61,535 nt of DNA. It comes from Bradyrhizobium sp. (GTDB taxonomy: Bacteria > Pseudomonadota > Alphaproteobacteria > Rhizobiales > Xanthobacteraceae). The position numbers and the translations under genes were made by a program. The stretch is taken from NCBI GenBank assembly GCA_028290305.1, contig JAQGKC010000426.1:1-61535 (forward strand). Direction: 5' to 3'. The notes under the pieces are model-generated. The model had not been told where the DNA came from. It saw only the letters and a program-made list of their open reading frames with translations, and did no database searches. This document shows, one piece after another, positions 720-56,060 of this stretch. Every line of letters begins with the position of its first letter. Positions within the stretch are counted from its first letter, which is position 1.

Positions 720-1461
720 CGCAATTTCCTAAAACCGGCAAAAAATAGGAATTAAATCTGCATTTCCGTGATCGTCCAGCTGATTCGCCGGCTGTCACAG
801 GCATTCCGCGATCGCCGAGAGGATAATACAGCGGCCTTAAATATTACTTTTTGATATGTTTCCTATTTTATCGATGAAATCTAGCGTCGTTGAAAATTCA
901 AATGCTGCATCAAATGACGATATATGCAGTTCGAGCAGGGCGTTAGCCAACCGCGAGCGCGCTCGCTGCAGCGGGTAACCCGGCATGTTACAACCTATTT
1001 AATTATTTGATTATGCACCCTGACCCGACAGAAGCAGCGTCGGACGGGCGCGAGCCCTTCAGTGGCCGAACGGCAATTTCGGCAGAGTGGCATGCCCGTG
1101 ACATCATTATTGACATTGCCGCGCCAGCCCGGTGTCCTTCTTCAAAGGACGGAGACCGCTAGCCCCTTGCCAATCCGGTTATTGACGAAGCAACCTAATC
1201 GCCGCATCCCTGAAACTGCCTATCGGAATATAACGTGTAGCCGCTGCCAATCAGCTTATTATTCTCGACCTCAGCATTAAAAACCGAACCAAACAGAAAT
1301 TTTGTAGTCATCCACAGCGGAGGAGGTCTGTGCACGCAAGTTGACGACCACACTGGGGCCAAGCAGGTATTTGTCAGTTCGCGATCCGGGCCGCATAGTT
1401 ACTAAACTCTCTTAGGCTGCACTGCCCCACGGATCACACCAGTCGCAGGAAATATTGATCA
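720..1461. other. Intergenic region with two AATTAAAT words
   Basis: No convincing gene is seen in about 740 bp. It contains AATTAAAT at 750-757 and its reverse complement at 997-1004, in a locally AT-rich setting. A 72-codon open frame at 1062-1280 has no ribosome site or family likeness. The region probably holds the promoter of the methyltransferase gene at 1462. Confidence 0.5.
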
Positions 1462-2436
1462 ATGAAGCATTTGCGCGAAACATTATTCAGATTCATCGAT
1501 ATTATTTTGGCTCCCGCCGTGTTGATCCTGGCGCCGCTTGCGTCGGGTTTGGCTCGCCTTCGTCAGCGCGCTCCCCTATCCCGATCTATTCTCGACAAGT
1601 TCCAGGTCGCCGTCGTCCGGCATCACTACTATGAACCGATCGTTTTTCCTGGGGATCTAAAACGCGATCTTCGCTTGCCGCGACAAATCACCGGGCTAAA
1701 TTTGAACGAACAGGGTCAGTTCAACCTGATAAATCAATTTAGATACCGCGATGAACTACTTGCCATTCCCATTGAACAGACAGGTCAAACCAAGTTTGCG
1801 TACCATAACGGCTCATTTGAGCCAGGGGATGCCGAATTTCTTTACAACATGATACGCCACTTCAAGCCGCGCCGTATCGTTGAGGTCGGTAGTGGAAATT
1901 CGACTCTAATGGCTCGGCTTGCTATCGAAAAAAACAGGAAAGAGGACCCGGACCATAGGTGCGAACATATCTGCATCGAGCCCTTCGAACAGCCGTGGCT
2001 TGAATCCATTGGGGTGAATGTCGTGCGCAAAAAGGTTGAATGTTGCCCGACCAGCTTATTTGAAGATCTGGCAGAAAATGACATTCTGTTTATCGACTCA
2101 TCTCATATTATTCGACCGCAAGGCGACGTCTTGTATGAATACCTGCATCTGCTTGGCTTGCTACGGCCCAATGTGATCGTTCATGTCCATGATATCTTCA
2201 CGCCCTGCGACTATCCCTCCGAATGGTTGCTGCGTGACCGTTGGATGTGGAACGAGCAATATCTCCTGGAGGCTTTCCTGAGCTTCAATTCATGCTTTGA
2301 AGTGATAAGCGCTCTCAATTGGCTTGCTCATAATCATCTAGAAAAGTTGCACGATGCCTGTCCAATTCTGATGAAAGAACCATGGCGAGAACCGGGCTCG
2401 TTTTGGTTCCGGCGCAGAGCTGATACCAGCGCATGA
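1462..2436 (+). CDS. Class I SAM-dependent methyltransferase-like protein
   Basis: 324 residues. The SAM-binding glycine loop is EVGSGNST at residues 141-148, preceded by a predicted beta strand (RRIV). A second region around 205-225 (DILFIDSSH) and a further one near 245-255 (VIVHVHDIF) fit the class I fold of the Methyltransf_24 type. Residues 12-30 are hydrophobic, so the N-terminus may touch or enter the membrane. The ATG follows AGGAAATATTGATCA, an acceptable ribosome site. Relatives sit in polysaccharide loci, where they are thought to methylate a sugar or act on lipid-linked intermediates; the substrate here is unknown. It is convergent with the beta-helix gene at 2556-3446. Confidence 0.72.
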   Translation: MKHLRETLFRFIDIILAPAVLILAPLASGLARLRQRAPLSRSILDKFQVAVVRHHYYEPIVFPGDLKRDLRLPRQITGLNLNEQGQFNLINQFRYRDELLAIPIEQTGQTKFAYHNGSFEPGDAEFLYNMIRHFKPRRIVEVGSGNSTLMARLAIEKNRKEDPDHRCEHICIEPFEQPWLESIGVNVVRKKVECCPTSLFEDLAENDILFIDSSHIIRPQGDVLYEYLHLLGLLRPNVIVHVHDIFTPCDYPSEWLLRDRWMWNEQYLLEAFLSFNSCFEVISALNWLAHNHLEKLHDACPILMKEPWREPGSFWFRRRADTSA

Positions 2437-2555
2437 CGGAGTGGCGCACTGTATTAATGTTCTGGACCAAGCATGCCCAACGATATTTCCGCTATCGATG
2501 CACGCAGGTGCCTGCTGATCGAGCAAAGCCCTTTGTGAACGCTCTCCGCACGGCC

Positions 2556-3446: not shown

Positions 3447-3869
3447 AATGGCCTCCGGTGCCAGGTCGGCTGGCCCGTTTCTCCCCTTAACCCTGCGAGC
3501 ACACCCTCAAGAGTCGCAAGGAAGCTTGCCGGCGCGCGATGCATCAGGAACCGAACCGCGACTTCCGCTATACTCTTCGTACTCACCACCACCGCCTCCC
3601 GGTGCTCGGAATGAAATGCTTCGCTCGATAATCGTTTTCCGCTGCCCCCTGGCAAGCGACAATTAAATAACGTCATCTCCAAAATGACGCGACAGAGGCC
3701 CTTAAATCCGTCCCGCCGATCAAAGGTCATCGGCCGCCGCTTACTCTTGCTAATATTCGCCTATATTACCGTTAGCTACAATGCCGAAACGTATTGGAAA
3801 ATCACTATCTCCCCTTTTGTTTGGGGGCCCCCGACGTTAATATCAATTAAATATTGCCATTGGACCTCT
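3447..3869. promoter_or_regulatory. Divergent intergenic region between beta-helix and FkbM genes
   Basis: About 420 bp between two divergently transcribed genes. It carries AATTAAAT at 3661-3668 and again at 3845-3852, the second only 18 bp before the ATG chosen for the FkbM gene. The reading frame can be extended upstream to 3684, but that stretch reads like noncoding DNA and would cover both words, so I treat it as regulatory. No classical -35/-10 pair is claimed. Confidence 0.4.
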
Positions 3870-4622: not shown

Positions 4623-4713
4623 GCGTGCGGCTTGCATGCCAGCACGATTGGCGGCCCCTCGCCGCCTCTGTCGACGTCGCGACCTTTCCAAGAAAACGGT
4701 ACGGTAGCGGCCG

Positions 4714-5823: not shown

Positions 5824-6705
5824 AGTTTCCTGATCTCGCTGCGCAAGCCGTCATCAACCCGATGAGCTTACTAAAGCCATTTACCCCCAATTCACCTATC
5901 GACTAGATTGTGTTTTAGCAGTGACGGATGGGCGATGCTTAACTCTCTATCCCGGTCGAAGTAAGCCACAGCATAAGCAGATACGTCACCCAACACTCGC
6001 ATTCCTGGCCGTCGAGAGATGTCCGTGAGTTTCATGGTTGAAAGCGTAACGTACCCCACAAGGACATGAATTCGAAACGGCACCGTCGAGAAATGACAGT
6101 CGCCGAGATTCGGTCAGGCAAAATTCGGCCCTACCCAGCGTCGATAAGAAGCACGGCTTTGGCGCGCCTGCTGAGAAAGGCAGATCCGACGGCACAGTCA
6201 AAACCAACCTAGCTAAACCGTCGGCGCAGCCACACCCATCCCTTTTTAGATCACACCAAAGCGGGCAAACGGATTAGCCAGTATAGATAATGCGTCGCCT
6301 TCGATATTTTGACAATGCCAAATTAAATATCTAAACTGAAGCTGCTTTGGCGCAATTTCGGCGATTGATAGGCACATTGAATTTCCTCAATAAATTTCGG
6401 AGCAATTCATGGGCGATTCGCTTGTGAGGGCTGAATATGAAACGCAAGGTTGTTAATAAAAGGAGCCAACGTTAGCGCCAAAATGAAATTTGGCGGTCAG
6501 TGCCTGCGGTCAATATGTGTTGTCGGCGGATGCCGGACACGGCCTCAAGCCGCGCTGTTAACCACGCGTAGCCTTGGGGGTTGCCCGGAAAGCTCGCAAT
6601 TTATTTGTGGTGAAATCATTTGAAAATGACAAACAACAGGGGGCTAGTTTGAGTCCTAGCGACGTATTTTCAATACAGGAGCGGCCGTCCGCTCGCGACG
6701 AAAAT
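5824..6705. other. Long intergenic region
   Basis: About 880 bp without a convincing gene. Short open frames here have no ribosome site or family likeness. AATTAAAT occurs at 6321-6328 inside a local AT-rich stretch. A TTG-started extension of the downstream gene (from 6574) is possible but lacks the glycosyltransferase fold. The region probably contains the divergent promoters for the oxygenase gene and the GT2/acyltransferase gene. Confidence 0.45.
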
Positions 6706-10089: not shown

Positions 10090-10098
10090 GCTCTCCAG

Positions 10099-11463
10099 TT
10101 AAGCTTGTGCGGGTGAGCGGAATCGGCCGTTCGCAATTTCATTCGCTATCGGTCGGGAATAAGTAACTGGTCGATCAGCGATCCTCATCGAATATTCTCG
10201 GAGCGAAGCTCGTATACCGATGCATATTCCCCAAAAAATCCACATGTAGTTCCAATAGTGAACCGTCAGCCCCACAAACATAAACAACACCAGGATCAGA
10301 GAAAAAGCGGTGCGCATCAGGGCCATGAAGGGATCTCCATCCCGGTTACCAGACTGCTTGACCGGCAACAGAGACGTTAAGTTTGTCAAGATCAGGAACA
10401 CGATCGTCGGAAGACCGAAGCGCAAGGACAACGCCAGCCAGACGCAATCAACGGATTGCAATTCCACCATACCAAAATCCAGGAACGCAAACCCTGTCCA
10501 GGGAGATAGGGAGATCAGTTCAATCGCAGAGTTCCACTCGAGCAACCGGAAATATCCGGATTCAGGCTCCAACGTCAGGTGCGAGAGAATCCAGCCCAGC
10601 GGATCATTGGTGGTAGCCATCCCCACGAGAACAAATGCGCCGAAGACTGTCCAGCACGCCCACCACCGCTCGGGAAATTGTTTGGTCAGTCCGCCATATG
10701 CGTATGTGGCCAACATGATAGCGAACGCCATCAGGCTGGACGAAGATAACGACAGTATGGCGCCGAAAAAACAGAGCCCAACCCACAAGACGCACTTCAT
10801 TACGTTGGTCTCAGAGTAGAGCAGCATGGCTGCGACCACGACGCAAAACGTGCCGAACAATATCGCATGATCGAATGTCGCGGTCGCCCGCACGATCCCC
10901 ATCCGGTCCTGATACTTAATTGGATCGACGTGCAGGATTGACGCGAAAATGTCGTGGATGACCAAATGTCCCGAGACGTTCTCTGCCACAGCGAAGACGA
11001 TGGATATGAACGCAAGCACTTTCAATACGCTTAGGAATTTGCGCAGGGCCAGCGGACCAAAAAAGAATCCACGCGCTACTAAATAGCCGCCAAAGAATTC
11101 GATGGCTTCCGCGGCCGCCGAAGATAACGACTCCGAGCCGTCCGTGTACACGGCTGCAACGACTATCCAGATGGCCGTTGCCGAGGCGAAAAAATCCGAC
11201 AACATCAGGCGGCGTTTCCGCTCGAGCAGCGCGAAAACAGCGGGAATCAGCAGCAACACGATGCACAGCCGCCCGACTGTGAGTTTCGCGCCAGCGATGA
11301 ATATCTGCACTTCGGCTGCTGGTATAATCAGCCCAATCAAGACCAGGCAAACCACCAAAGTGTTCCCGCGCCTACCGAGCTGCGAGTTCGAAGTCGCGAG
11401 CGCTATTTCGGCGCTGCCGCGCAGCATCGATTGCGATGGAACCCCGTAAATACGGCTCCTCAC
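10099..11463 (-). CDS. Polytopic membrane protein, Wzy/O-antigen-polymerase-like
   Basis: About 454 residues with roughly ten hydrophobic segments and a large loop around residues 300-350, the usual topology of Wzy polymerases and O-antigen ligases. Sequence is poorly conserved in this class, so the call rests on topology and context. I favour the GTG at 11463 because AGGGAG lies 6 bp upstream; a TTG at 11469 and an ATG at 11427 are alternatives. It lies between an acyltransferase and a methyltransferase in a short operon. A second candidate for this role is encoded at 49798-51156. Confidence 0.62.
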   Translation of the reverse strand: MRSRIYGVPSQSMLRGSAEIALATSNSQLGRRGNTLVVCLVLIGLIIPAAEVQIFIAGAKLTVGRLCIVLLLIPAVFALLERKRRLMLSDFFASATAIWIVVAAVYTDGSESLSSAAAEAIEFFGGYLVARGFFFGPLALRKFLSVLKVLAFISIVFAVAENVSGHLVIHDIFASILHVDPIKYQDRMGIVRATATFDHAILFGTFCVVVAAMLLYSETNVMKCVLWVGLCFFGAILSLSSSSLMAFAIMLATYAYGGLTKQFPERWWACWTVFGAFVLVGMATTNDPLGWILSHLTLEPESGYFRLLEWNSAIELISLSPWTGFAFLDFGMVELQSVDCVWLALSLRFGLPTIVFLILTNLTSLLPVKQSGNRDGDPFMALMRTAFSLILVLFMFVGLTVHYWNYMWIFWGICIGIRASLREYSMRIADRPVTYSRPIANEIANGRFRSPAQA

Positions 11464-12710: not shown

Positions 12711-12755
12711 TAAACCATTTAATATATAATAACAACAATTAAATAAATTAACCAA
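12711..12755. promoter_or_regulatory. AT-rich island between divergent genes
   Basis: Almost pure A/T over about 45 bp in the gap between the acyltransferase gene and the GT-B gene, which are divergent. It contains AATTAAAT at 12737-12744 and the related ATTTAAT just upstream. I read it as a shared promoter/operator zone and possible target of AT-binding proteins such as the H-NS-family products encoded further right. Confidence 0.4.
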
Positions 12756-20740: not shown

Positions 20741-20845
20741 TTAAATGAATTAAATCGAAGCTCCAAAATTAAATCATAAATCAAAAATAAACAAATAAAA
20801 TAAATAGCATTATTCTGCAAATTGCTGAATTCGTGTAAATCGGTT
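20741..20845. promoter_or_regulatory. AT-rich island upstream of the WbpE-like aminotransferase
   Basis: A sharply AT-rich stretch in an otherwise gene-dense run. It has two copies of AATTAAAT 19 bp apart (20748-20755 and 20767-20774), followed by repeated AAATAAA words. It separates the broken acetyltransferase gene from the aminotransferase gene and is the only long gap between 14.0 and 24.2 kb. I infer a promoter or silencer-binding site. Confidence 0.45.
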
Positions 20846-27586: not shown

Positions 27587-27682
27587 AATTAAATGCTACG
27601 GGCGACGCGAACCGGATGATTGCCAACCCATTCCGCTGGTCGGTATTTAATATAATATTATATTATGCGAGATGCTATTTAA
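27587..27682. promoter_or_regulatory. AT-rich promoter region of the wec run with an 18-bp palindrome
   Basis: Upstream of the first gene of the wecG-wecB-wecC run lie AATTAAAT at 27587-27594 and, at 27648-27665, the perfect palindrome TAATATAATATTATATTA. Related ATTTAAT words sit beside it at 27645-27651 and near 27672. Such a perfect, pure-AT palindrome in GC-rich DNA suggests a protein-binding site or DNA-structure element; a chance AT tract is not excluded. Confidence 0.42.
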
Positions 27683-27917
27683 TAACAAGACGTGAATTAT
27701 TAATTTGAATCGCTGCGTTAGCCGCATCCGATCGGTCGGTATCGCACATTTACCAAGGCATCGAACCGAACACTGCGGGGTATCAAAACCATGATTTACT
27801 TGACTTTTACGCCGCTTTTGCTCCGCGGCGACGCATTCGGTACCAGCATAAATGACCGGCGGAGGACGCCGCTGGGATAATAATAGAGCCCCTGACAAAA
27901 TTAAATAGCGTTAATAA

Positions 27918-28147
27918 CGCCATGATCTCTGCGATTTCCCACGCCTTAATCAGCCCGACCGACTGGAAGCCTGCCTCCGCAGCCTCGAGGTACAAACTCT
28001 CAGCCGACCACCGTTCGAGATCATCGTGGTCGACAATGGCTCCGCTGCCCCGCCCCAAGAGGTTGTTGCTCGCCACGCAGGCGTGCGGCCCAACCGGGCC
28101 CGGGGTCCCGCCCGCAACACGGGCGCAGGATCGGCGACGGATGCCAA
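27918..28147 (+). pseudogene. Relic of a family 2 glycosyltransferase
   Basis: In one forward frame this reads FPRLNQPDRLEACLRSLEVQ and then FEIIVVDNGSAAPPQEV, the opening of a GT2 catalytic domain. A decayed GPARNTG motif follows about 20 codons later. There is no start codon in frame, the first beta strand is gone and the frame stops at 28147-28167 just where a different homology begins. It is a truncated relic, not a functional gene. Confidence 0.68.
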
Positions 28148-28566
28148 CTACCTTGGAGCGTTGCTGAAGGCCTGATTGTGGGTCAACTGGCAGAGGTCGG
28201 AACGTTGACCGAACGACCAGAGAATCCATCCGAGCTCATAGCTCCGGCACTCAAGGCGAAGTCCGACATCGGCCGGATCGATCAAGGTTGACGAACGCCC
28301 CAGGTATGCATTCCGAACGGCGCGCAGTACGCGCATCTTCTTCGTTTGCAAGTTCGCATTTCCTGACCTGCGAGCGAATGCTCAACTGCAGCTTGGGTAT
28401 GAGCATCGACTTGCCCAGCTGGTTCTCGCCGAGAACCCAGTGGAATCCCTTTGTCAACGCCGCGCGGGCTTCCTGGACATCATGACATTCGGCGCACTCC
28501 AGCAAAGCGGGAGCCATGCCGTATTGGTGAACCGAATAAACCTCGTAGAAATCGAGAACACGGCCG
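28148..28566 (-). pseudogene. Relic copy of the 3' end of the alpha/alpha-toroid gene
   Basis: This matches the C-terminal ~135 codons of the intact gene at 30280-31512, beginning exactly at the same TAG stop. Shared blocks include LDFYEVYSVHQYGMAPALLE, WVLGENQLG.SMLIP.LQLS, RNAYLGRSSTLIDPA and LECRSYELGWILWSFGQR. Reading frame is broken at least once (near 28350). Its upstream end is fused to exporter-gene sequence at about 28566. The intact gene lies 2.1 kb away in the same orientation, so this is a partial duplication. Confidence 0.85.
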
Positions 28567-35148: not shown

Positions 35149-35467
35149 TTGGAGACCGTGGGGTGTTCGGAGTCGTCGAGGTACCGCCCTCGCCGACCGG
35201 GCTGATCGTCGGCGCATCGATCGGCGCTCTCGCCTGGTTGCGCTTGACCACTCCGGCGTCGACTAGACCCTGGAGCGCATTTTGCATGACTTCGACCGAG
35301 TTCGCGAACGCTTCGACCGAGAAGATCAATCTTTGACGAAAGACCTTTTTCGGCGCGTTGTTGGCGTCGCGTTCGGTCGGCGAAAGACTTACCAGATCGA
35401 CGCGCACGATTGCGCCGCCAACGGTGATCTCGTCAATTCCATCCGTGTAAACCTCGGCGTGCATCAT
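35126..35467 (-). CDS. Small conserved-looking protein of the type I operon (113 aa), unknown function
   Basis: The ATG pair at 35467 has AGGAG 4-7 bp upstream; that ribosome site overlaps the stop codon of the giant gene, so translation is coupled. The first 75 residues look structured (VGGAIVRVDLVSLSPTER, RQRLIFSVEAFANSVEVMQN), with an alpha/beta flavour recalling small DUF3467-like proteins. The last 35 are a Pro/Ser/Thr tail. No signal peptide or membrane segment. Its place between substrate and exporter suggests a secretion chaperone or regulator; this is inference. I do not recognise a named family. Confidence 0.7.
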   Translation of the reverse strand: MMHAEVYTDGIDEITVGGAIVRVDLVSLSPTERDANNAPKKVFRQRLIFSVEAFANSVEVMQNALQGLVDAGVVKRNQARAPIDAPTISPVGEGGTSTTPNTPRSPNVSANFR

Positions 35468-35474
35468 ACCGCTC

Positions 35475-38400: not shown

Positions 38401-41400
38401 CAGTTCACACTTTGCGTGCCAATTTGGCCGCTCGTCTGATGCCATGTATTGCCGCCGTCCGTTGAAATCTGAACGGCGCCAATCACGCCGCCAACATCGG
38501 TGGCGGTCCCGGTCACGGTAACAGTCCCGCCTTCAACCACGCTGGCCGCCGAAACGCTGGTGATCTTGGAGGTAGGCGGCGTATGATCGGTCGATGCGCT
38601 CGCGATGACAAGACTCGCTTGCAGCGTCTGCGGCTGGACCCCCATGTCCGCGAACAGATTCACCATCGCCTGCTGGACATTCGGGTCGGTCGTCGTCGTG
38701 TTGCCGTCCGGGCCTGGGTCGTGTTGTGAGGAAAGGCCCCATGACCAGAAGACGGTCCCGGCCCCAAACACGAGCGCGCCGCTGGTCGGATCACGGTACT
38801 CGACGAGATTGTGGGTTGCGGTACCCGTCCCGTCGACGTTCCCGAACTGAGAATTGACGGTAGGTTCTTGCAGTGTCGTCGAGGAGACGTTGATTAGCCC
38901 GGCCGGCATGAACCCGTTGTCCGGGGATGAGTCCCACTCGTATCCCAAAAGGCCCGGTTCGAGCGATGCGGTTTGACCCGGCGCCGTGGTGGCAACACTG
39001 GTGTTTCGCCAGATACGCAGCTTCGTCATATCAAAGGGAATTGTAATCGTACCAAGGGTCGGGGTCTGGTCGACCGAGAACAACTGGCCAGTCAGTGCGT
39101 TGGAGGGTGTGTTAACGCCCCCCCAACTGACTGGGGCTTCAAAAGCGCCCGTCCCCTGCCCGATGGGATTGATCAAACTTTCGAAATGACTGTCCTTGTA
39201 GGACACAAGAGTGCGGTTGGCTGTCCCACTGCCGTCGATGCTCGGAGCAAACTGCGTCTGCCAGAAGATCTCGTTGCCGCTCAGGAATACGAGATTAACG
39301 CCCGCGTTTTTTGCGGCCTCGACATTCGCGACCTGGCTATCGGTCCAGTATTCATCGTGCCCGGCATCCATGAAGACTTTATGATTGAGCAGCAATGAAC
39401 CGTTAGTCGCAGTATCCATGCCGGCAATATAACTTACGTTATAACCGTTTTCTTCCAGCCAATAAATCGCCGAGTATTCAGCTCCAAACAGAGAATCCTG
39501 CGGCCCCGCGAACTCGCCGACACCATCACGAACAACGATGGGCCGATTGTAACTAACCGCAAAGGCCGCGCCGGGAACGGCTTCTCCACCAGCGTTGTCG
39601 GGCGGATTGGAAGGACCGTTGCCTCCGTAGAGATTGGCGCCGCCCCAACCATTGTAGGCCTGCCAGGTCTCATCATCCGTTTGAAACACGATGTCGCTTG
39701 TGGAGTTGGGATCCTTGACAACAAACGGAATCTGGAAAATTTGCGAGCCTTCGACGATGTTTGCGACATAGACGCCGGACGTCGCGTTGCTGGGGATCGC
39801 CCAGGAATCAGTGACCTGCCAATTGCCGGCGTCGACCTCACCAGTTGCTGGATTAACGATGGGCGCCGGCTGGACGACAGCGCTCGTCGCGTGATGCTGA
39901 ATTGTGGCGGCCAGGGTGGCTCCGTCTCCGCCATAGTAACCCAACCGGTAGATATTGATCTGGTAGTTCGGGACGCCCGTCAGATTGTCGATTTTGAAAT
40001 CGACTGTGCCGCCAATATTGGTGCTGATCTCGGTAGTGAAGCCCAGTATCGTCGTCGAATCATCTCCCGGATCGACTTGCCACACACTTGGCAGCGTTCC
40101 CGGCTTCTCGTTTTCCAGCGCGATTGGATTCAAAGTGACGGCGTTGATCGTCACGCTGTTTGCTGAAAACGTGGAAATCGTCGAAGCCATAGTTATTGTA
40201 GCGGCAGAAGTAATCGTGCCAGCAGAGCTCTGCACAATATTGCCGGGCGTCTGTACGGGCTGCGGGCTTGTGACCTGTAGTGCAGCAAAATTGCCGTTCA
40301 TGCCGAGCGGCGTTGTCGCAGGAGGCAAAAGCCCCACGCCGCCCGTTAATGGGGCATCAGGCTTCACCGTTGATGGCGAGGTGCTGGGGGAGCTCTGCCC
40401 AGTCGGTGCGGCCCCGCCCCGCAACACGGTGGTCGACAAGGGAGTGGCGGCAAGTGGCGGGGTGCTCGAGCCGATACGATGAGGATGCGAGTTGTCGGTC
40501 GCAGGTGTGTTCGCATTTCCTGGACCTGTGACTCCCGCATTCCCCACATTGAGAGTCTGTACTTGCGTTGAGATAAACGGTGGCGGCGCCAAGACCTGAT
40601 CAGACAATGGAGCTGTCGTCAGACTCGCGTGCTCGCTGTTCTGTACGGGTGCGCCAGGGTGTGCCGCCTCGTTCCGTTCGGCCGGCGATGCGATAGCCGC
40701 AGAATGCGAAAGGGTCGCCTCCAGTAGTAGCGCAACAGCGAGCGGCGCAACAATGTTGCTGCCGGTCGCAGAGATCATGTTCGGCGTACTCATCGGAGGG
40801 GCATCTGGACCCACAACCAGCAACACAGCCCCGGTGACGGCTGTCTCCGCGGGACCGCCAGCGCGGTATTGCAGAAGTGAAATCTCTCCACTCGCGTCAG
40901 CGGCCGGCGCGAAGATCAATCCATTCAGTTGCGCAAAACTCAGAGTTTGCCCCTGTACGACCGCGGTGGTCCCATCGGCCAGCAGCACGGTCCCGTTCGA
41001 GGGCAATTCAGTGATCGTGACATAAGATTCAACGGAGATTTCGGATTCACCGGAGATTTCCGAAGCCTGAATGCCGATCGGCCTTGGTTCGCCGTTCTGC
41101 GGAACACTCAAGACAAACCAGTTCTCCAGCTTCGGCTGGATTGCCGACCCGATTGCAGATCCGGTTTGGGCGGTGGCCGGCCTAAACTTCAGCGCCGAAA
41201 GCTCGGCTGCGGTAACCACCTGCCCGAGAACAAGCTGCGTGATGCCGTCTTCCTTCAGGACCGCGCCTTGCGAAGGCAGCGCCTTCACGTTCACGGCCAA
41301 ATCATGCGGGGTGTAGTTGGTGTCGGCGATCGTTGCGATACGGAAGGGTGTGGCGCGACCATTTTCGCCCGTCAAGGAGGTCGGATTCAGGCTCAACATT

Positions 41401-41417
41401 GAGAGCACCCGTGACAC
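35475..41417 (-). CDS. Giant type I secretion exoprotein: cadherin-like, dimethylformamidase-beta-like and DUF4082 domains
   Basis: 1,980 residues from a GTG at 41417; an ATG at 41399 is possible. Order: residues ~15-240, two cadherin-like repeats (PSQGAVL, PSNGTVLLADG); ~240-430, Pro/Ser/Thr linker; ~436-940, a domain like the N,N-dimethylformamidase beta subunit (NIYRLGYYGGDG, QTDDETWQAYNGWGG, GHDEYWTDSQV near 687, FLSGNEIFW); ~945-1045, an Ig-like domain (QISTDGGNTWHQTS). Then four DUF4082 repeats (ELGVKF..., GLRFYKG, HVADLW, SGWQ.VNF, AGT.Y..SY) alternate with three cadherin-like repeats (NENGS...LLANDTDP). No N-terminal signal peptide and no GGxGxD RTX nonapeptides. Probable role: large adhesive or matrix protein exported by the downstream genes; an enzymatic function of the middle domain is unproved. 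Confidence 0.83.
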   Translation of the reverse strand: MSRVLSMLSLNPTSLTGENGRATPFRIATIADTNYTPHDLAVNVKALPSQGAVLKEDGITQLVLGQVVTAAELSALKFRPATAQTGSAIGSAIQPKLENWFVLSVPQNGEPRPIGIQASEISGESEISVESYVTITELPSNGTVLLADGTTAVVQGQTLSFAQLNGLIFAPAADASGEISLLQYRAGGPAETAVTGAVLLVVGPDAPPMSTPNMISATGSNIVAPLAVALLLEATLSHSAAIASPAERNEAAHPGAPVQNSEHASLTTAPLSDQVLAPPPFISTQVQTLNVGNAGVTGPGNANTPATDNSHPHRIGSSTPPLAATPLSTTVLRGGAAPTGQSSPSTSPSTVKPDAPLTGGVGLLPPATTPLGMNGNFAALQVTSPQPVQTPGNIVQSSAGTITSAATITMASTISTFSANSVTINAVTLNPIALENEKPGTLPSVWQVDPGDDSTTILGFTTEISTNIGGTVDFKIDNLTGVPNYQINIYRLGYYGGDGATLAATIQHHATSAVVQPAPIVNPATGEVDAGNWQVTDSWAIPSNATSGVYVANIVEGSQIFQIPFVVKDPNSTSDIVFQTDDETWQAYNGWGGANLYGGNGPSNPPDNAGGEAVPGAAFAVSYNRPIVVRDGVGEFAGPQDSLFGAEYSAIYWLEENGYNVSYIAGMDTATNGSLLLNHKVFMDAGHDEYWTDSQVANVEAAKNAGVNLVFLSGNEIFWQTQFAPSIDGSGTANRTLVSYKDSHFESLINPIGQGTGAFEAPVSWGGVNTPSNALTGQLFSVDQTPTLGTITIPFDMTKLRIWRNTSVATTAPGQTASLEPGLLGYEWDSSPDNGFMPAGLINVSSTTLQEPTVNSQFGNVDGTGTATHNLVEYRDPTSGALVFGAGTVFWSWGLSSQHDPGPDGNTTTTDPNVQQAMVNLFADMGVQPQTLQASLVIASASTDHTPPTSKITSVSAASVVEGGTVTVTGTATDVGGVIGAVQISTDGGNTWHQTSGQIGTQSVNWTYTFTAPAPGKYSIETRAVDDSLNLETPGSGTAYTVTPSSAISIFSSSGTPAVLDVSDIQVEVGVKFTSAENGEITGIRFYKGPQNTGTHVGDLWSTNGTLLASATFSNETASGWQQANLSTPVRITAGTTYIVSYNTNGNYSDTSGYFDTYSGQTNGSLTAPGEATNGVYAYGSGSVFPSNISASGDNYWVDVVFNDMSAGPQANNDSGFTTTENGTLTIAASSLLANDSDPAGLSFSIASVGNLANGTVSYNAQTKVVTFVPTAGYAGTATFTYTISDTSGATGTAQVSANVQYPVSAQSLFGTNDTPSVIASNDFSPAELGVKFTASANGTITGLRFYKGAGNVGTHVADLWSATGTLLATATLTSETASGWQEVNFASPVAITAGTTYVASYHTSGDYSDTSNYFTTSLTNGELTAPAGNNGVYAYGAGSIFPTNTFGASNYWVDVVFNGSNVILPPVANNDSGFVVNENGSITIAASTLLANDTDPGGLPLTVTGVTNPLNGTVSYDPNAKTATFTPNAGYTGDASFSYTISDTAGGTATASVGLLVNSTSTESLFSLSSVPSTVTVNDTNAVELGVRFVASADGMISGLRFYKGSQNTGPHVADLWNSNGTLLATATFSNETASGWQQVNFSNPVAITAGTAYIASYHTDGDYSINAGYFTNPAVSGDLTAPAGSNGVYAYGASSIFPTSTFDASNYWVDVVYTKSIEPPVATNDSGFVVNENGSTTISASALLANDTDPNGLSLSVTGVSNPTNGTVSYDSTAKSVSFTPNAGYTGTASFTYSVADSSGASASASASLIVNDPSATSLFSPTSIPAVVTENDTNSIELGFKFQANTNGEITGLRFYKGPENTGPHVADLWSSTGTLLATAAFTNETASGWQQVNFSNPVAITAGTTYVASYHTNGDYSADPNLFATAQTNGPLTAPASSSSGGNGVYAYGSSSLFPTNSFNSTSYGVDVLFKAQLAA

Positions 41418-41672
41418 AATAGCTCGAAAAAAATGGGCTTTGTAATTTTTAATTTAACTACTTATTAACTCCGACGTCAATTCAATGTATTTAAAATTAA
41501 ATGGTGATAGTAAATATCGCCGGCAAAAAATTAATCATGTGATTGCAATACACCCCGCAATTTGCGAGAGATTCCAATGAACCGGCGCGCAACTCCCCCA
41601 AGCGAAGCCGCCGAATGAATAAATGAGACATCTCAGGATCGTGTGGATAAACCGCAAACCGCATCCACGTTT
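41418..41672. promoter_or_regulatory. AT-rich region upstream of the giant exoprotein gene
   Basis: Between the giant gene start and the rfbA stop, both on the reverse strand. The part at 41441-41517 is strongly AT-rich and includes AATTAAAT at 41495-41502. It should hold the promoter of the type I secretion operon and any rfb terminator; no clear hairpin was seen. Confidence 0.42.
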
Positions 41673-45092: not shown

Positions 45093-45593
45093 CCGCATTC
45101 CTTTGCCGTCGATGCGCAGAAAACTCCCGTCGTTCGCACGCAAGGGCTGGGAAACTTCGGGCGACAAATCCATCGTCAAGCCTCAATCTGACACAATTTT
45201 CAATGACGGCCCGGTCTATGACCCACCGGCGAGATTAAAAAAACAGAATTAAATTCATCGCTACCCCGATAATCCACCGCCCTCCCGGCAGCAGATGCCG
45301 CTTCGAATATTCCGCATAGGCGGGCACGGTAAATGCCAATGGATTTCAATGCGTTCCGCTAAAACTGCTGCAACGTCAAGCTGTCTGCAAAATTCATGTT
45401 AATTTTAAACCATTATCATTTAATTTGAGCAACCACTTTCTTTATCTGGTACATTGGTATTAAATGCAAATAATTCGTAATCAGCCGCAGACGTCAAGAA
45501 CCCGCTTGTTTCCGGCGTCGCAATACAAGCTTGTCGTGCGTTGGCAGGCCGCCGGCGCGGTTCGAAAATTCGCAATGCAAGTGGGCCATTTCG
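45093..45593. promoter_or_regulatory. Divergent control region between rfbC and the Wzc-like gene
   Basis: A 500-bp gap between divergent genes. AATTAAAT is at 45247-45254 and in reverse at 45418-45425, with further AT-rich DNA to 45475 and the variant TATTAAAT near 45456. It is expected to hold the promoters for rhamnose synthesis and the export machinery, so it is a key control point. No gene is seen in it. Confidence 0.48.
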
Positions 45594-47933: not shown

Positions 47934-48150
47934 ATACCTTCATCATTAATTAATCGCATCGCAGCACGCTCGTACAGCTGAACACTGGGCTGACGGTCAG
48001 TGTTGCGTTTAGGTAACAGTGCGCTCCGCTATTTAATTGCAGACGCACGATTCGCTGGTTTGAATCATCCAACAGTGTCAACGTGTATGCACAAGGTCGG
48101 GATCGACGGGGGCTCTTCTGTTCGGGTCAAAACATAGCTGGGCGAATATC

Positions 48151-49356
48151 TTGGTAGCATTCCTGGCATTGTCTTGTGCCGGGTGCGCCATCATGCCGGC
48201 TGACGGTCCGCAAAGCATGGACATTCGCACCTCTCAAGCCGGGGAACCTGAAAGCCTGCCCTACGCGCTGGTGAAGCTGACACCTGACATCGTTCATGTT
48301 CTGGGTCGATATACGCCAAGACTTTCAACAGCGTTCTCAGACAGAAGCCCCCCGAAGGCATTCCGTTTCGGCATCGGCGACACAGTCAGTATTACGATTT
48401 TCGAAGCTGCGGCGGGCGGCCTGTTCATTCCGGCCGAGGCAGGCGTTCGCCCCGGTAATTTCGTCACGATCCCCAACCAGGCGGTCGACGACCGTGGCAA
48501 TATTGCAGTGCCGTATGCGGGCGCGGTCGCGGCGAAAGGCCGGACGCCCGCCGAAATACAGCACGCAGTCGTTGATGCACTCAAGAGTCGCGCTATCGAG
48601 CCGCAGGTGGTTGTGTCGCTGGTCGACCAGCACACCTCGCTCATCAGCGTCCTCGGCGACGTTCACACGGCCGGCCGTTTCCCTGCGAGCCCCTCCGGGG
48701 AACGTATTCTCGACACGATCGCACGGGCTGGTGGACCGGTTACTCAGGGCTACGATATGTGGGTCACGCTCGAGCGGGAAGGACACCGAGCGAGCGTCCC
48801 GTTCGGAGCGCTTCTCTATGAACCGTCCAACAACATCTACGCGCTTCCGAACGACGTGATTTATCTCTACAGCCAGCCCCAGACCTTCGTGGCGTTTGGC
48901 GCCGCAGGGACCCAGGGACAGTACAGATTCGATGCCTGGCGTATCTCGCTTGCGGAGGCCGTCGGGAAGCATGGCGGGCTCAACGACGCCCAGGCGGACC
49001 CTGCCTCGGTGTACCTCTATCGCGGCGAGACCCGGGAGGTCGCCCAGCAGCTCGGAGTTGACTGCTCGCGTTTCGAGGGCCCCATCGTTCCAATCATTTA
49101 CCTCGTCAACTTCCGTGATCCATCCGGATATTTCCTCGCGCAAAACTTCGAGATGCGGAACAAGGACGTCATTTACACATCGAATGCTGCCTCCGTTGAG
49201 ACCACGAAGTTCCTGAACTTCCTGCGGACAATCATGGCCACCGCGAACGACCCGATCATCTATGCAACCAACGGCTACGCTCTGAAAGCTGCGATCAACG
49301 GCACGTCGACATCGACGATCATTACGACGCCAACGCCTATTGTCACCACGCACTAA
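48151..49356 (+). CDS. Wza-like polysaccharide export lipoprotein (OPX family)
   Basis: 401 residues from a TTG. The family polysaccharide-export domain begins FRFGIGDTVSITIFEAAAGG near residue 71, followed by ISVLGDVHTAGRFP and a SLBB-like part with ILDTIARAGGPV. LSCAGC near residue 7 looks like a lipobox, but only seven residues precede it and none is basic. An in-frame stop at 48061 limits any extension, and only non-standard starts exist between (for example a CTG at 48118 giving LFGSKHSW before the hydrophobic run). The annotated start is therefore uncertain. The protein would form or gate the outer-membrane channel for the polymer. Confidence 0.82.
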   Translation: MVAFLALSCAGCAIMPADGPQSMDIRTSQAGEPESLPYALVKLTPDIVHVLGRYTPRLSTAFSDRSPPKAFRFGIGDTVSITIFEAAAGGLFIPAEAGVRPGNFVTIPNQAVDDRGNIAVPYAGAVAAKGRTPAEIQHAVVDALKSRAIEPQVVVSLVDQHTSLISVLGDVHTAGRFPASPSGERILDTIARAGGPVTQGYDMWVTLEREGHRASVPFGALLYEPSNNIYALPNDVIYLYSQPQTFVAFGAAGTQGQYRFDAWRISLAEAVGKHGGLNDAQADPASVYLYRGETREVAQQLGVDCSRFEGPIVPIIYLVNFRDPSGYFLAQNFEMRNKDVIYTSNAASVETTKFLNFLRTIMATANDPIIYATNGYALKAAINGTSTSTIITTPTPIVTTH

Positions 49357-49797
49357 TCTGTTGACCTGGCCCTCTTCCTTCTTGCGGAGGCGGCGTATGG
49401 CCAGGCAACCCCGGCGCAGCGTCTCGATGACCGCTGGCAACGCCGATGGACGCGCCCCCTCCAGCCGGAAGTAACGGCAAGCTTTGGTTTCGAAAGGCCT
49501 GATTTCAGGGGGCAGCCAAACCCTGAACAACCGGGTAGAATGCCGTTGCCGCAAGGTAATATATTATATTAACGTATTATATATTGCATAATTTATGGAT
49601 TTAATAATTAAATAACTCGTGCCGACCGCCTGAAGCGGTCCCGATTTTAAATTCGCTGTCGAGGGCCCTCGCTTGATCAGGCTCGTCCAAGAATCCTGTT
49701 TCTCTTACAAAAAGCCTGTCATTGCCGTGATTCCGTCCAGAGCAACCACCGGCACGGATTGGGATGATCCAGCCGCCACAATCTGCGATGACGCCTG
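49357..49797. promoter_or_regulatory. Intergenic region with AT-rich island
   Basis: 440 bp without a gene. Positions 49557-49617 are almost pure A/T with overlapping inverted repeats (ATATTATATTAACGTATTAT) and AATTAAAT at 49606-49613, next to ATTTAAT. The flanks are GC-rich. It probably contains the promoter of the membrane-protein pair downstream. Confidence 0.42.
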
Positions 49798-51156
49798 ATG
49801 ACCACAGCTTTCATCATATTGAGCGCGCTGCTCGCACTCCTGCCCACGCTCATGATGGTCGATGGCATCCTTGCGAACGGAGTGGTTTCGGCAATGGACG
49901 CGATCGCGATCGTGATGATCGCGCTCACGCTGCACAGCACTGATCTTAATCGCTTTTCCCGGCTGCTCGGACCCACCGCCTTCACTGTTCTATTTATTCC
50001 TGGCCTCTGGATGCTGTTGCAGGTTCTCCCGATTCCGATCCGCTCGCTGGCCAACCCGATCTGGGCGAGCACATCCACGGCGCTGGACAAGCCGTTCGCC
50101 GGTGCCATCAGTTTGGATATCGGAGCAACGTTACTTTCTCTCGCCCGCTATTGCGCCAGTCTGGCCGCGGCCTTCATCACTACCGCTGTCACTCTCAACA
50201 AACAGCGCGCGGAAAGTGTTCTATCCTTGCTGACGGCTATCGCCGCGCTGATTGCGGCGGAACTGATCGGATTCGATCTGGGTTATTTGCACTTACCCGG
50301 GTTCGAGCGCGCAGACGCGATGAGCATCGCCGTCATCGGATTCATTCTGTCCTGTGCGACCGGCATCAGGGCCTACGAAGTTTTTGACACGCCAAACACG
50401 CGAAACCGGAATTCACGGATGGCGGCGAAAGTCGCGGGTTCGGCGTCAATAGTGGCGCTCTTCATTTGTCTGTCTGCGATCCTGATCAGCGCGAATGAAG
50501 TTTTGTTTTTTGCCGCCCTGTTCGGCACCGGCATTCTCATCAGTGTGTCGGCCATTCGCAAATGGCGGCTTGGTCTATGGGGACAGGCGGGGATAGCCGC
50601 GCTCGCAGCGGTGGTAGTGGTCGGATTCTTCGCAATTGCGCCTGCGAAAAAGGATGCTGATCCGACACTTGCATTGTCGACGCAAAGTCAGAATTCCTCG
50701 ATCGAGCGAATGCTGTCTGATACAAAATGGGGGGGATCAGGCGCCGGGTCATTCGAAGCTCTGTTGCCGATCTATCGCGACTCCAACGAAGTGGATTCCT
50801 TCGAAATTCCCACCGCCGCGGCGACGATAGCAATAGAGATGGGGCAACCGTTCCTTTGGGCATGCGTCGTTGTTTTTCTAATCGGAGCGTCGACGCTTTT
50901 CAGACGAGCTCTCCTGCGGGGTCGGGATTATATTTATTCGAGCGCTGGAGCGGGGTGCATCATCGCACTTCTTGTCTCGTTGTTCGCGAACGACGGCAAT
51001 TTAGGGCTGTCCGCATCGGTGATGATCAGCGTCTTGTGTGGGTTGGCCTTCGCTCAAAGCAAAAGTGCCAGCAACAGAGATTCGGGGCTGTCCGAGGAGC
51101 TGTACAGTGTTCCAATCAGGACGAACGATCGCGCCGCGGCGGAGGTTTCTCGATGA
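49798..51156 (+). CDS. Polytopic membrane protein, O-antigen ligase/polymerase-like
   Basis: 452 residues with about ten membrane segments from the very N-terminus (TTAFIILSALLALLPTLMMV). A periplasmic-type loop near residues 290-330 carries KWGGSGAGSFEALLPIYRDS, similar in place and style to the G-x-G-x-G-S/N-F loop of WaaL/Wzy proteins. It lies between the Wza-like gene and an accessory gene whose start overlaps its stop (ATGA). It is a second candidate, besides 10099-11463, for the polymerase or ligase. The ATG at 49798 is not preceded by a clear ribosome site. Confidence 0.65.
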   Translation: MTTAFIILSALLALLPTLMMVDGILANGVVSAMDAIAIVMIALTLHSTDLNRFSRLLGPTAFTVLFIPGLWMLLQVLPIPIRSLANPIWASTSTALDKPFAGAISLDIGATLLSLARYCASLAAAFITTAVTLNKQRAESVLSLLTAIAALIAAELIGFDLGYLHLPGFERADAMSIAVIGFILSCATGIRAYEVFDTPNTRNRNSRMAAKVAGSASIVALFICLSAILISANEVLFFAALFGTGILISVSAIRKWRLGLWGQAGIAALAAVVVVGFFAIAPAKKDADPTLALSTQSQNSSIERMLSDTKWGGSGAGSFEALLPIYRDSNEVDSFEIPTAAATIAIEMGQPFLWACVVVFLIGASTLFRRALLRGRDYIYSSAGAGCIIALLVSLFANDGNLGLSASVMISVLCGLAFAQSKSASNRDSGLSEELYSVPIRTNDRAAAEVSR

Positions 51157-51848: not shown

Positions 51849-51901
51849 GCGTGTTGCATCCGGCACGCGCCCTCCTCGAATCATCCCCACACGGATTAAA
51901 T

Positions 51902-52355: not shown

Positions 52356-53834
52356 ATGAATTTTGTGAAGCAGCCCATTAGCGCGGATCTATCGGTAGGC
52401 GTTTCCGCTCGCGGTTTGGAAGAACAGCCGCGCGCAGGGCGCAAGTGGCCAATCCATTATGATTCCGTCGAGTTGCTTGCGATCGTGGCCGATTTCGCGA
52501 CGATCACTCTGGCCAGCGTGTTCTCCGGCCTTTCATATCATCTTCAAGACTCGGGGACATCAGGCGATCTCGGCAAGTCCCTCGGCTCGGCAATGCTCGT
52601 CTCGGCTTTGTTCATTTCGTTGATGAAGATACGCGGGATGTACAGACCAACCGAACTGCTGGTCCTGCGCAATCAGATACGCGTGGTTTGTCTGGCCTGG
52701 GCGAGCGTATTCCTGCTGCTCGCCGGCACGGTGTTCGCGCTGAAAATCGGAAATGAAATCTCGCGCGTCACCAGCATGCTCTTCGCCATGTTTGGCCTTA
52801 TCGCGCTGATTGTGCACCGGAGCGTCCTGAGAGAACTGCTCAGCAAAGGTCTTGCCGAGAGGAGATTTTCCGGCCGCAACATCGTCCTGATTACCGACCA
52901 TTCGCAAATCGGCGACGCCAGTCTCACTCAAACTCTTACAGGGCTCGGCTTCTGTGTGGAGGAGCACTTTATTTTTCCACCTCCAAGTGCGAACTCCCGC
53001 CATCGGGAAAGAGTCGTTGCAGGAGTGATCGAATGCATTCGCGGCTCTGACATCGAAGAGATTGTGGTCGGTGCCGACCCGAACCGTTGGCCCGAGCTAA
53101 GCGCCATGGTCGCCGAGTTGAGAGTTCTGCCATTCCCGGTCAGCTTCGTTCCCCTCGGGGCAGCTTCGGAGATATTCAGGCGGCCTTCCCGTGAGCTCGG
53201 CAGTGCCATTTGCGTTGAGTTGCAGCGCGGCCCGCTGACTTCGTTTGAGCATGCTGCAAAGCGATGCGTTGACGTCCTGTTCGCTGGGGTAGCCGTGGCG
53301 GCCCTCCTGCCGCTGCTCGCGGTCGTGGCAGTTGCCATCAAGCTGGACTCGCCAGGTCCCATCCTGTTCAGGCAGAAACGCTGCGGCTTCAACGGCAAGA
53401 GCTTCTTAATTCGCAAATTTCGCACGATGTCGGTCCTCGAGGACGGCCCCTCGATCATTCAAGCTCAGCTTGCCGACAAAAGAGTAACGCGCTTGGGAAC
53501 ATGGCTGCGCAGGACGAGCATCGATGAGTTACCCCAATTGCTCAACGTGCTGGACGGCAGCATGTCTCTGGTGGGCCCACGCCCTCATGCAGTCGCCCAT
53601 GACAACCAATTTGACAAGCTCGTTCGAAACTATGCGTTCCGGCGCCGTGTAAAGCCGGGACTGACGGGATGGGCGCAAGTGAACGGATGCAGGGGACCAA
53701 CTCCCACTGCCGCGTCGATCGAACGGCGCGTCGAATATGATCTCTGGTATATCGACAATTGGAGCATCGGGCTTGACTTTGCGATTCTGCTCCAGACCCC
53801 TATCGAGATATTACGCGGTCGCAACGCCTACTAG
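52356..53834 (+). CDS. Undecaprenyl-phosphate sugar-1-phosphate transferase (WcaJ-type)
   Basis: 492 residues. The N-terminal half has four membrane segments and a CoA-binding-like domain. The C-terminal PHPT catalytic domain starts AAKRCVDVLFAGVAVAALLP near residue 302. It continues SPGPILFRQKRCGFNGKSF, KFRTM, LGTWLRRTSIDELPQLLNVL (catalytic Asp-Glu) and SLVGPRPHA, and ends with VKPGLTGWAQVNG. It puts the first sugar phosphate (usually glucose or galactose) on undecaprenyl phosphate and starts the repeat unit. Full-length for WcaJ/PssY-like proteins. The ATG lacks a strong ribosome site. Confidence 0.9.
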   Translation: MNFVKQPISADLSVGVSARGLEEQPRAGRKWPIHYDSVELLAIVADFATITLASVFSGLSYHLQDSGTSGDLGKSLGSAMLVSALFISLMKIRGMYRPTELLVLRNQIRVVCLAWASVFLLLAGTVFALKIGNEISRVTSMLFAMFGLIALIVHRSVLRELLSKGLAERRFSGRNIVLITDHSQIGDASLTQTLTGLGFCVEEHFIFPPPSANSRHRERVVAGVIECIRGSDIEEIVVGADPNRWPELSAMVAELRVLPFPVSFVPLGAASEIFRRPSRELGSAICVELQRGPLTSFEHAAKRCVDVLFAGVAVAALLPLLAVVAVAIKLDSPGPILFRQKRCGFNGKSFLIRKFRTMSVLEDGPSIIQAQLADKRVTRLGTWLRRTSIDELPQLLNVLDGSMSLVGPRPHAVAHDNQFDKLVRNYAFRRRVKPGLTGWAQVNGCRGPTPTAASIERRVEYDLWYIDNWSIGLDFAILLQTPIEILRGRNAY

Positions 53835-54457
53835 AGCGCGTTCACCTTTAATTGCCCCGAGTAATTGCCCCGCAGCTGCGCTCTATCCACGCATGAACTG
53901 CATTGCCCGACTTCTTCCCGGTCAGTGCCCGTCGTCATGTTCCTGGAGCGCTTCCTCGATGTGTTTCAGAATCGATTCAGCATCGGCTTTCGATACTTCG
54001 GGCCTTTTGCGACTCAGATCAGCCGGCTGCGGGCGGCCATGCCCGCGCTTCGCTGGAAGCGCGGATTCGAGTTCAGCTTCGATACGGTTCCAATCTCGGT
54101 TACCCACCGTCGCCCTCTGTGCAACATCTCCCGATGCGCGGGCAGAATACGGCAGTCCGGCTGCATAAATGAAAAAACCGGGATAAGTGGTTAATAATCT
54201 CCGTCGCAGCGCCCGGAGACTCAACTGCAGACCGGTGCTTTAAGCCGGTTCCCCGTGACGCGCCCATCCGTATAGCTTTTCGGCCTCACCGACCTTGCGA
54301 TCGGAACGATCCGCCCTGCTATGCCCGATTGTTGCACGTCCTGGCGGAATTGAGCGCCACATCGGCTCCGGTCGGCAATCGAGTCTGCGCTCTTAATCGC
54401 GACTCATGCCACCGCCGCAGTTCTTGAGATAAAAATAAAACTGAACGAAATCCGACT
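53835..54457. other. Intergenic region downstream of wcaJ
   Basis: About 620 bp. A near-repeat TAATTGCCCCG occurs twice just after the wcaJ stop. A TTG-started reverse frame at 53922-54224 (100 codons, charged C-terminus) has no ribosome site and I do not accept it as a gene with confidence. No convincing terminator is seen. Confidence 0.4.
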
Positions 54458-54838
54458 TCACATCCTTTGGCGTCGGCCCTTCGACCCGCCCGCTTCGCCA
54501 ATCTTAAAATCTTCGATCTTACGACCGGTTTTTATGGCAGCGGCCAACCAACGCGGTTGCTTCCCGCGGCCCGACCATGTTTCGGAGGGCGTCTGAGGAT
54601 TGCGATACTTCGGAAAGACCCTCGGATATTTGCGTCGAGCCTTACCATTAGCATTGTAGGACTGCGCAGCATCTCCCCCTTCAATGAGGTCCCTGCCCCG
54701 GTTGAGGACTGCCAACCGCTTCTCAAGTTCACGCTTTTCCGACGTGATCCTTGCGGAAAGAATTCCGCTAATCTTTTCATGGAGCGACCAGAGGTCATCG
54801 ACGGACATAGCTTCCAGATCGATTTTCTTCAACGACAT
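54458..54838 (-). CDS. H-NS-family nucleoid protein
   Basis: 126 residues, ATG start. An N-terminal coiled-coil oligomerisation part (VDDLWSLHEKISGILSARIT, SEKRELEKRLAVL) is followed by a basic linker. The C-terminal DNA-binding motif is YRNPQTPSETWSGRGKQPRWL near residues 78-98, the core of the H-NS histone family (PF00816). Such proteins bind AT-rich DNA and silence or bend promoters. It is a paralogue of the product of 56061-56450. The many AT-rich islands in this locus are possible targets, which is inference. Confidence 0.88.
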   Translation of the reverse strand: MSLKKIDLEAMSVDDLWSLHEKISGILSARITSEKRELEKRLAVLNRGRDLIEGGDAAQSYNANGKARRKYPRVFPKYRNPQTPSETWSGRGKQPRWLAAAIKTGRKIEDFKIGEAGGSKGRRQRM

Positions 54839-56060
54839 ACTGCGGCCTTGTATTTCCGGTGTGCGGCGTTTGTCGGCTTGATGTCATATTACCCGGTTAA
54901 TCATTCCGCAAGTGGCCCGCTACCCCTTTCGGTGATGATCGCTTCGGCATGCACCAAGAAATTTATTAGAAGGGCCTATCCGATGTTTATGATCCCGTTC
55001 ATAGCCCATTGAAGCATTTGACCTTTTTTGTCGGCCGTACATCGCATATCTGGCGGGCAACGTGTTGGCTTAAATTTTTGCAACTTTAAGTTACAGGCCG
55101 TTCATCTGGTCCAGAACGCTGCCGACGCACCCGGAATTCGTGCGCCAATTTGAAACCTGAAGCACCGCACAATAACGCCCATCCCGGGCAACCTGTGCCC
55201 CGCAGATGTAGCGCGCCGTTGAGTTGGATATCTCAAATGAGTTTTTTTCAGCAGCATATTGCGGCCATCACCACCCGGCGGCCAATCTCATCACTCAGTT
55301 ATGCGAATCGAACGAACTACTCGAGCGGGTCAGGAAAGCGCAGCTATCAGTTCGGCGAACGCAACGGACAAACCAACGACATAGAACGTGGATATGGAAT
55401 CATGGAGGCCACCTCAGTTGGCGGCCTCTTCGTTTCAGCCCGGATTGCGTTGCGTTCGCGCCGCGTCGATATCCTTACGCCGCGCATACCGGATATGGCT
55501 GTGATTGGAAATTCGACCGCGCCGAAGGCACCCACCAAACACCTTACACCTGGGTATATAACACTTGGCGTCTCCGGACACATCGACTACCCGCCAATAT
55601 GGGCTTTTGCCGCCCCGGCGTTGAAATCTTCGGCTCTCCGCAGTCCGTAAGAAATAAATTAGTTAATGCAAACAAGCGCCCGGGCCTGCCCGCATCGCCA
55701 CAACACTACTCAATTCGTTGGAAACGCTAATATTTCCGTATTCAAATGGAAGTATTTGGGATATAATTAAATTTGCCAAACATGTGAATAACATGTGACG
55801 CGGAATTAATTTTGCTTTAATTTAAACATCAAGCTTATATATATTAAGCACGCGCTAGAGTTGTGTAGGATGATTCAGTGACTTCGAGAATGAAGACTGC
55901 GTGCCGCCCCAATTTACTGAGGCTGCATCGTCTTCGAACGCGAAGAGATTGACGGCGGGTGCGACGGTGTAGGGACGGGCTCATTTCAAGACGCCGAAAT
56001 CAGCCCGAGCTTATGTCGAGGATATCTTGATCGTTCCAGACCAACAGTCACGAGAGCGCG
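54839..56060. other. Large gene-poor region between the two H-NS-family genes
   Basis: About 1.2 kb. Several overlapping forward frames exist but none has a ribosome site, domain or consistent codon use. It contains a hairpin at 55405-55428, an AT-rich stretch at 55740-55850 with AATTAAAT at 55765-55772, and a pair of ACATGTGA words 11 bp apart at 55780-55798. It probably holds both promoters and old gene debris. Confidence 0.42.
55405..55428. terminator. Possible hairpin terminator
   Basis: GAGGCC and GGCCTC flank a 12-base interval whose inner CC/GG can extend the stem with one mismatch; TTCGTTTC follows on the forward strand. Weak intrinsic terminator or structured-RNA candidate with no clear gene upstream. 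Confidence 0.28.

Follow-up and report, generated by a model that had tools for sequence, protein, structure and literature searches.

Introduction

Silencers of the H-NS type are usually held to recognize the groove shape of AT-rich DNA and no fixed word. Here, we describe an 8-bp word, AATTAAAT, that recurs in the gaps of a polysaccharide island of Bradyrhizobium sp. which also encodes two H-NS-family proteins of its own; the window we analyzed is a whole stretch of 61,535 nucleotides (GenBank assembly GCA_028290305.1, contig JAQGKC010000426.1, positions 1 to 61,535). A close parallel is Ler of the LEE island, an H-NS-family regulator that, like the window pair, is island-encoded, and that controls the island in which its gene lies. 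The C-terminal domains are similar (Ler chain 2lev, E 2.6e-05), and the Ler-DNA structure reveals a minor-groove reading in which a narrow AT tract, AATT, lies beside a wide step (PMC3219716). Ler differs in that it counteracts H-NS, its resemblance to which is confined to the C-terminal domain according to the part of a review consulted here (PMC7074111), whereas the window combines a pair of old paralogues with a recurring 8-bp word and a polysaccharide island.

Other described systems share some of these features. H-NS and StpA belong to the same PF00816 family, and the 10-bp consensus proposed for them, tCG(t/a)T(a/t)AATT, also holds an A/T-only tract with a TpA step (PMC3219716, in part); in contrast, AATTAAAT lacks the CG portion, and its clusters are largely restricted to a single island with H-NS genes of its own. 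The serU island likewise encodes H-NS homologues, Hfp (H-NSB) and H-NST, although the accessible sections of the review describe no island-wide sequence word for them (PMC7074111). For the actinobacterial silencer Lsr2, AATTAAAT is among 18 AT-only 8-mers scanned as potential sites, but it is one of many Streptomyces candidates and is not presented as an island-specific word in the accessible text (PMC11596768). Finally, MucR/Ros proteins are H-NS-like silencers that govern exopolysaccharide genes in other rhizobia (PMC10572780, PMC8227245), but they are zinc-finger proteins with no tight consensus reported in the portions of these sources drawn on here, and they are encoded elsewhere in the genome and are not linked to the clusters described below. 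Our comparisons lead us to propose, with moderate confidence, that AATTAAAT is a conserved cis-element of the polysaccharide island and most likely a putative nucleation site of the island-encoded H-NS pair.

Results

An exact search of the window found AATTAAAT at 16 sites, 13 on the plus and 3 on the minus strand, and nowhere else, which reproduces the 16 positions that the original prediction had read by eye. In 100 dinucleotide-preserving shuffles of the window, the word occurred 1.38 times on average and at most 5 times, with 0/100 shuffles reaching 16. The chance expectation had been put at half a hit for an A+T content of about 42%; base counts give 43.6%, and a fair expectation is about 1.4. 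AATTAAAT is also the top 8-mer in the window gaps, with 14 copies in first-pass gaps versus 0.6 and 1.15 under order-1 and order-2 Markov models built on those same gaps. The shorter ATTAAAT variants noted earlier were recovered, each within about 3 bases of its earlier placement. The claim that the sites avoid genes holds after two corrections. The FkbM gene has in-frame ATGs at 3870/3873, downstream of the site at 3845, around which codon-position GC looks non-coding, and ORF 27807-28229, which covers the site at 27899, has neither a family match nor a tblastn match in the island stretches searched. Because the FkbM start moves to 3870/3873 and the second ORF is unsupported, 0/16 sites lie in a supported gene.

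The concentration of the word in islands extends to relatives in Bradyrhizobium, Afipia and Rhodoblastus. Genome-wide, AATTAAAT is rare, with 4 to 53 copies per genome in the ten whole genomes (4.0-8.5 Mb) reached via sugar-transferase loci. In four genomes (G045, G007 and G199, each a single contig with a full site list, plus G005), of 103 copies in all, 44 are found no more than 60 kb from the H-NS pair, versus 1.92 expected; G045 and G199 were drawn by order- or family-wide H-NS searches blind to the word, but the 60-kb radius and the island limits were fixed after the site positions were known, unlike the 77 sugar-transferase loci considered below. The maximum number of copies per 80 kb was 9-18 in the nine genomes with pair-type genes, including G003 with the minus type only, 3 in Nitrobacter G006 with its one minus-type gene, and 1-5 in the 23 genomes without them, the value of 5 being reached only in G193. 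This count covers the 33 genomes (18 + 15) with complete site lists, leaving out G001, G018, G200 and most of a set of 61 genomes, among others. In all locus counts, related loci are non-independent.

The clusters cannot be attributed to AT content alone. In three genomes, the islands hold 33 copies in 233 kb, versus 2 in 800 kb of control stretches placed by hand at even steps outside the islands of the same genomes (141.5 versus 2.5 per Mb). The remaining 55 words with an A5T3 composition, such as TAAATTAA, served as permutation controls and average 21.8 per Mb in islands versus 2.0 in controls, an enrichment of about 11-fold, compared with about 57-fold for AATTAAAT. Within islands, AATTAAAT occurs at 6.5 to 7 times the permutation mean, ranking 1/56 in 6/7 islands and second in the seventh. 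In 40-bp windows matched for AT content, which overlap by half, there were 28 hits versus 1.70 expected in bins backed by 32 or more control windows; 26 further island windows at 75% AT or above are uninformative because only 2 control windows exist there. When single substitutions were counted over the gaps of 53 loci, position 1 proved the loosest, and C or G fell near background at positions 2, 3 and 6. These counts were used instead of expectation-maximization motif models of width 10, 14 and 20, which had been seeded on AATTAAAT and drifted to generic AT-richness.

The sites are biased towards the 5' sides of genes. Across 644 gaps of the same 53 loci, with gene sets defined by a simple ORF and codon-GC rule, the core ATTAAAT has a density of 2.84 per kb where the flanking genes diverge, 1.96 where they run in tandem and 0.18 where they converge, and gaps with an AT fraction of 0.45-0.55 contain 4 convergent core sites versus 21.9 expected. 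In 49/53 loci, the core occurs in the 300 bp ahead of the sugar transferase (the exact 8-mer in 29), and it is present in 41/47 of the divergent gaps between H-NS genes (the exact 8-mer in 16). When two exact sites lie within 120 bp of each other, 14/34 pairs are spaced 10-19 bp apart (41 stretches). Tandem gaps contain 34 same-strand and 30 opposite-strand sites, at distances to the start of 18-415 bp (5-95% range). Because the word is strand balanced and its distance wide, AATTAAAT does not behave as a sigma-factor promoter element. Outside the island, two genomes (L092, L099) carry one AATTAAAT between divergent genes whose translations read as LysR-type and permease-like.

The two H-NS-family genes of the window are divergent and encode P0001 (54458..54838, minus strand, 126 aa) and P0002 (56061..56450, plus strand, 129 aa). 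Their membership in the family is well supported by the C-terminal Histone_HNS domain, which scores above cut-off in both (PF00816, E 1.4e-18 and 5.8e-17), and they are 56% identical to each other. A tree of 110 rows places the 47 plus proteins together on one side of a branch with support of 94/92, and 52/54 minus proteins group together with modest support (83/81), although the short sequences leave many forks open. As each lineage spans both Nitrobacteraceae and Rhodoblastaceae, the two genes appear to stem from an old duplication whose copies have stayed adjacent. Both proteins have the contact loop TWSGRGKxP, in which R91 and K93 are invariant in 31/31 aligned sequences. An AlphaFold model of P0001, computed as a single chain only, predicts an N-terminal helix at residues 13-53, with pLDDT >90 to about residue 40 and a pTM of 0.35. 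A PADLOC search of 4 proteins gave no match.

In relatives, the spot where the word clusters holds H-NS-family genes, mostly as a divergent pair like that of the window, and at sugar-transferase loci the word tracks the presence of such genes. Of 77 loci retrieved through the sugar transferase only, leaving out the Pseudomonas loci L077-L079, all 50/50 with an H-NS gene carry AATTAAAT (181 sites, 1.80 per 10 kb), versus 4/27 of those without one (5 sites, 0.094 per 10 kb), two of the loci (L003, L023) ending before the H-NS position. The 25 loci whose sugar transferase is no more than a distant relative hold 5 copies in 508 kb. In a second draw of 20 H-NS loci, two of the pair type, defined by a score of at least 180 bits against the pair's own profile versus at most 112 for the others, have 7 sites each, and the other 18 have 2 in total. 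In G003, with the minus gene only, the 40-kb locus holds 10 sites, and few of the sugar genes of the window were matched there. Two loci with a lone H-NS gene also have sites: L144 has 10, and L135, which has no other homologue of window genes, has 3.

Family scans define the window as a polysaccharide island with glycosyltransferases, Wzx, Wzy-like, Wzc, Wza-like and WecG-like proteins and rfb genes, together with a sugar transferase and a type I exporter that is accompanied by a DUF4082 exoprotein. The first two sites (750..757, plus; 997..1004, minus) share a gap and lie 705 bp and 458 bp upstream of a methyltransferase gene. On the plus strand follow a site in the divergent gap between the beta-helix and FkbM genes (3661..3668), one immediately ahead of the reassigned FkbM start (3845..3852), one in the divergent gap ahead of a GT2-hexapeptide gene (6321..6328) and one in the divergent gap between an acyltransferase and a glycosyltransferase gene (12737..12744). 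Two plus-strand sites, at 20748..20755 and 20767..20774, form a pair 19 bp apart, the first lying 11 bp upstream of a minus-strand DegT aminotransferase gene. The sites at 27587..27594 and 27899..27906 (both plus), the latter under the unsupported ORF, share a gap, the former being upstream of the minus-strand WecG-like gene, and that at 41495..41502 (plus) is upstream of the minus-strand DUF4082 exoprotein gene. The divergent gap between RfbC and Wzc holds one site on each strand (45247..45254, plus; 45418..45425, minus).

The minus-strand site at 48031..48038 seemed to lie in a convergent gap; it is actually 113 bp upstream of a plus-strand Wza-like polysaccharide export gene (48151..49356, Poly_export and SLBB domains). 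An antisense ORF of slightly greater length (48337-49554, minus) masks this gene, so that longest-ORF calling takes the wrong strand. The remaining sites, both plus, lie upstream of the gene at 49798-51156 (49606..49613) and in the divergent gap separating the two H-NS genes (55765..55772). The sugar transferase (52356..53834, plus, Bac_transf domain), which was the anchor for fetching the loci of relatives, has its closest relative among the genomes searched in an alphaproteobacterial metagenome-assembled genome (79% identity), followed by Bradyrhizobium. Elsewhere in the window, positions 30280-41417 encode a 1980-aa exoprotein with DUF4082, DMFA2_C and cadherin-like domains beside a C39-type ABC exporter and its HlyD partner.

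Discussion

The original prediction proposed that the word is a shared binding site for H-NS-family proteins or for a MucR/Ros-type protein. The comparative evidence favors the H-NS pair and does not favor MucR, and it is from this linkage that we infer the binder. In the mechanism we propose, the pair would bind the minor groove with high affinity at AATTAAAT in 5' gaps, and the bound proteins might then spread or bridge among the many sites, thereby silencing or coordinating the operons of the island. Given the site between the two H-NS genes, this regulation may include the pair's own divergent promoter region, in a form of self-feedback. What the sequences show is the enrichment of the word, its 5' bias, its association with islands carrying these H-NS genes and the old divergence of the two paralogues. 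Binding, silencing in preference to activation, and feedback are inferred, and the silencing role is assumed from family membership; by analogy with Ler, an activating or anti-silencing role is possible.

Several observations weigh against assigning the word to the pair. The first group concerns DNA recognition. In the accessible parts of the Ler study, Ler recognition is described as groove shape across many sequences, with no fixed word. Both Ler and H-NS bind AATT better than TATA, a TpA inside the tract weakens Ler binding, and Ler prefers TpG over TpA after AATT (PMC3219716). AATTAAAT consists of AATT, a TpA step and then AAAT. Moreover, the contact loop is GVGR in Ler and GRGK in the window pair, which has a lysine where Ler has its key arginine and where the published motif TWTGXGRXP has arginine (PMC3219716, in part), so the DNA specificity of the pair could differ.

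The second group concerns linkage, and an H-NS gene as such is not enough to predict AATTAAAT sites. The word is absent from 12/20 H-NS neighborhoods of the first set and from three loci with a lone H-NS gene in G004. In Nitrobacter (G006, L021), a minus-type gene is present, but its locus has a single site and there is no cluster, and the most dense 80 kb of that genome, with 3 sites, lie away from its H-NS locus. Conversely, G193 (L225-L226) has 5 copies in 34 kb without an H-NS gene or a window homologue, and G196 (L227) has 6 copies around a homologue of the DUF4082 exoprotein, on a non-island contig and without H-NS. At L144, the H-NS gene adjoins a TubC-type docking domain and a methyltransferase gene, and the locus also has a Wzy-like match (40%), so that L144 may itself be polysaccharide-linked. 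The strongest limit is that pair and island are co-inherited, because of which the linkage is partly a single event counted repeatedly. The Ler TpA data and the Nitrobacter gene without a cluster, in particular, reduced our confidence in the H-NS pair as binder.

Among the alternatives, it is unlikely, though worth keeping in view, that AATTAAAT serves a different sequence-specific regulator whose gene lies outside the window, or is a promoter element. In favor of this are the shortness and asymmetry of the word, its excess over its permutations, and the clusters of G193 and of the G196 exoprotein locus, which occur without H-NS. Against this, the balanced strands and wide distances in tandem gaps are unlike a promoter element, and a scan of window proteins, several of which match nothing, revealed no further DNA-binding family. 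The genes beside 20 stretches with stray sites include no common regulator.

We consider it rather improbable that a MucR/Ros zinc-finger silencer encoded elsewhere in the genome is the binder. MucR is present in 10/10 genomes tested, controls exopolysaccharide genes in other rhizobia (PMC10572780, PMC8227245, in part), and AATTAAAT lies near 2/12 fetched MucR loci, a point that also counts against the H-NS pair: in G010 (L111), a site is 80 bp before the domain match, in a genome with 8 copies, and in G009 the distance is about 0.8 kb. However, G008 and G010 have MucR, no H-NS gene and no cluster, with 4 and 8 scattered copies; neither is a clean test of MucR because neither showed an orthologous island. 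Matches to PF05443 (Ros/MucR) lie outside the AATTAAAT clusters, which bears on linkage only, as a regulon does not require it. In the accessible literature, S. meliloti MucR is described as binding without a consensus, and the MucR peaks of Brucella yielded only a degenerate AT-rich sequence of 26 bp. Its presence in all ten genomes and the sites near two of its loci suggest that MucR could share sites; the clusters remain unexplained by it.

That AATTAAAT is simply a common AT-only 8-mer of an AT-rich island, the main rival named by the original prediction, is very improbable, for although A5T3 words are generally enriched in islands and only 2 control windows reach 75% AT, the explanation fails the permuted-word and AT-matched controls, and convergent gaps of the same AT content mostly lack the word.

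If the H-NS pair does bind AATTAAAT, an island of this kind, which combines a recurrent word with H-NS genes of its own, would allow direct tests in culturable Bradyrhizobium of sequence-specific nucleation and of how an island keeps a private chromatin while exchanging genes, and would provide a candidate exopolysaccharide regulator for this group. More tentatively, the H-NS paralogues and the word may constitute a self-contained chromatin code that is co-inherited with exopolysaccharide islands in at least two families, and such a module could impose island-specific chromatin on whichever sugar genes are swapped in. We regard this broader idea as doubtful, the Ler TpA data and the Nitrobacter gene having lowered it and raised the alternatives a little. 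Among the papers listed for AATTAAAT, none concerns such a use by title or abstract opening, and searches combining H-NS with Bradyrhizobium, exopolysaccharide or HvrA returned, by title or abstract opening and with subscription journals mostly outside their reach, no H-NS pair in such an island. The term H-NS is absent from the accessible main text of a review of rhizobial exopolysaccharide regulation (PMC8227245).

Further H-NS-like genes accompany some of these loci. In Bradyrhizobium sp. ARR65 (L008:5687-7970), extra H-NS copies lie beside the pair, and in the tree two of them fall among the lone-type proteins. Near the lone H-NS gene of L135, a 63-aa ORF (11239-11427, plus) matches the N-terminal profile of the pair (E 2.4e-15) and has no DNA-binding domain and no Pfam match, an arrangement reminiscent of H-NST.

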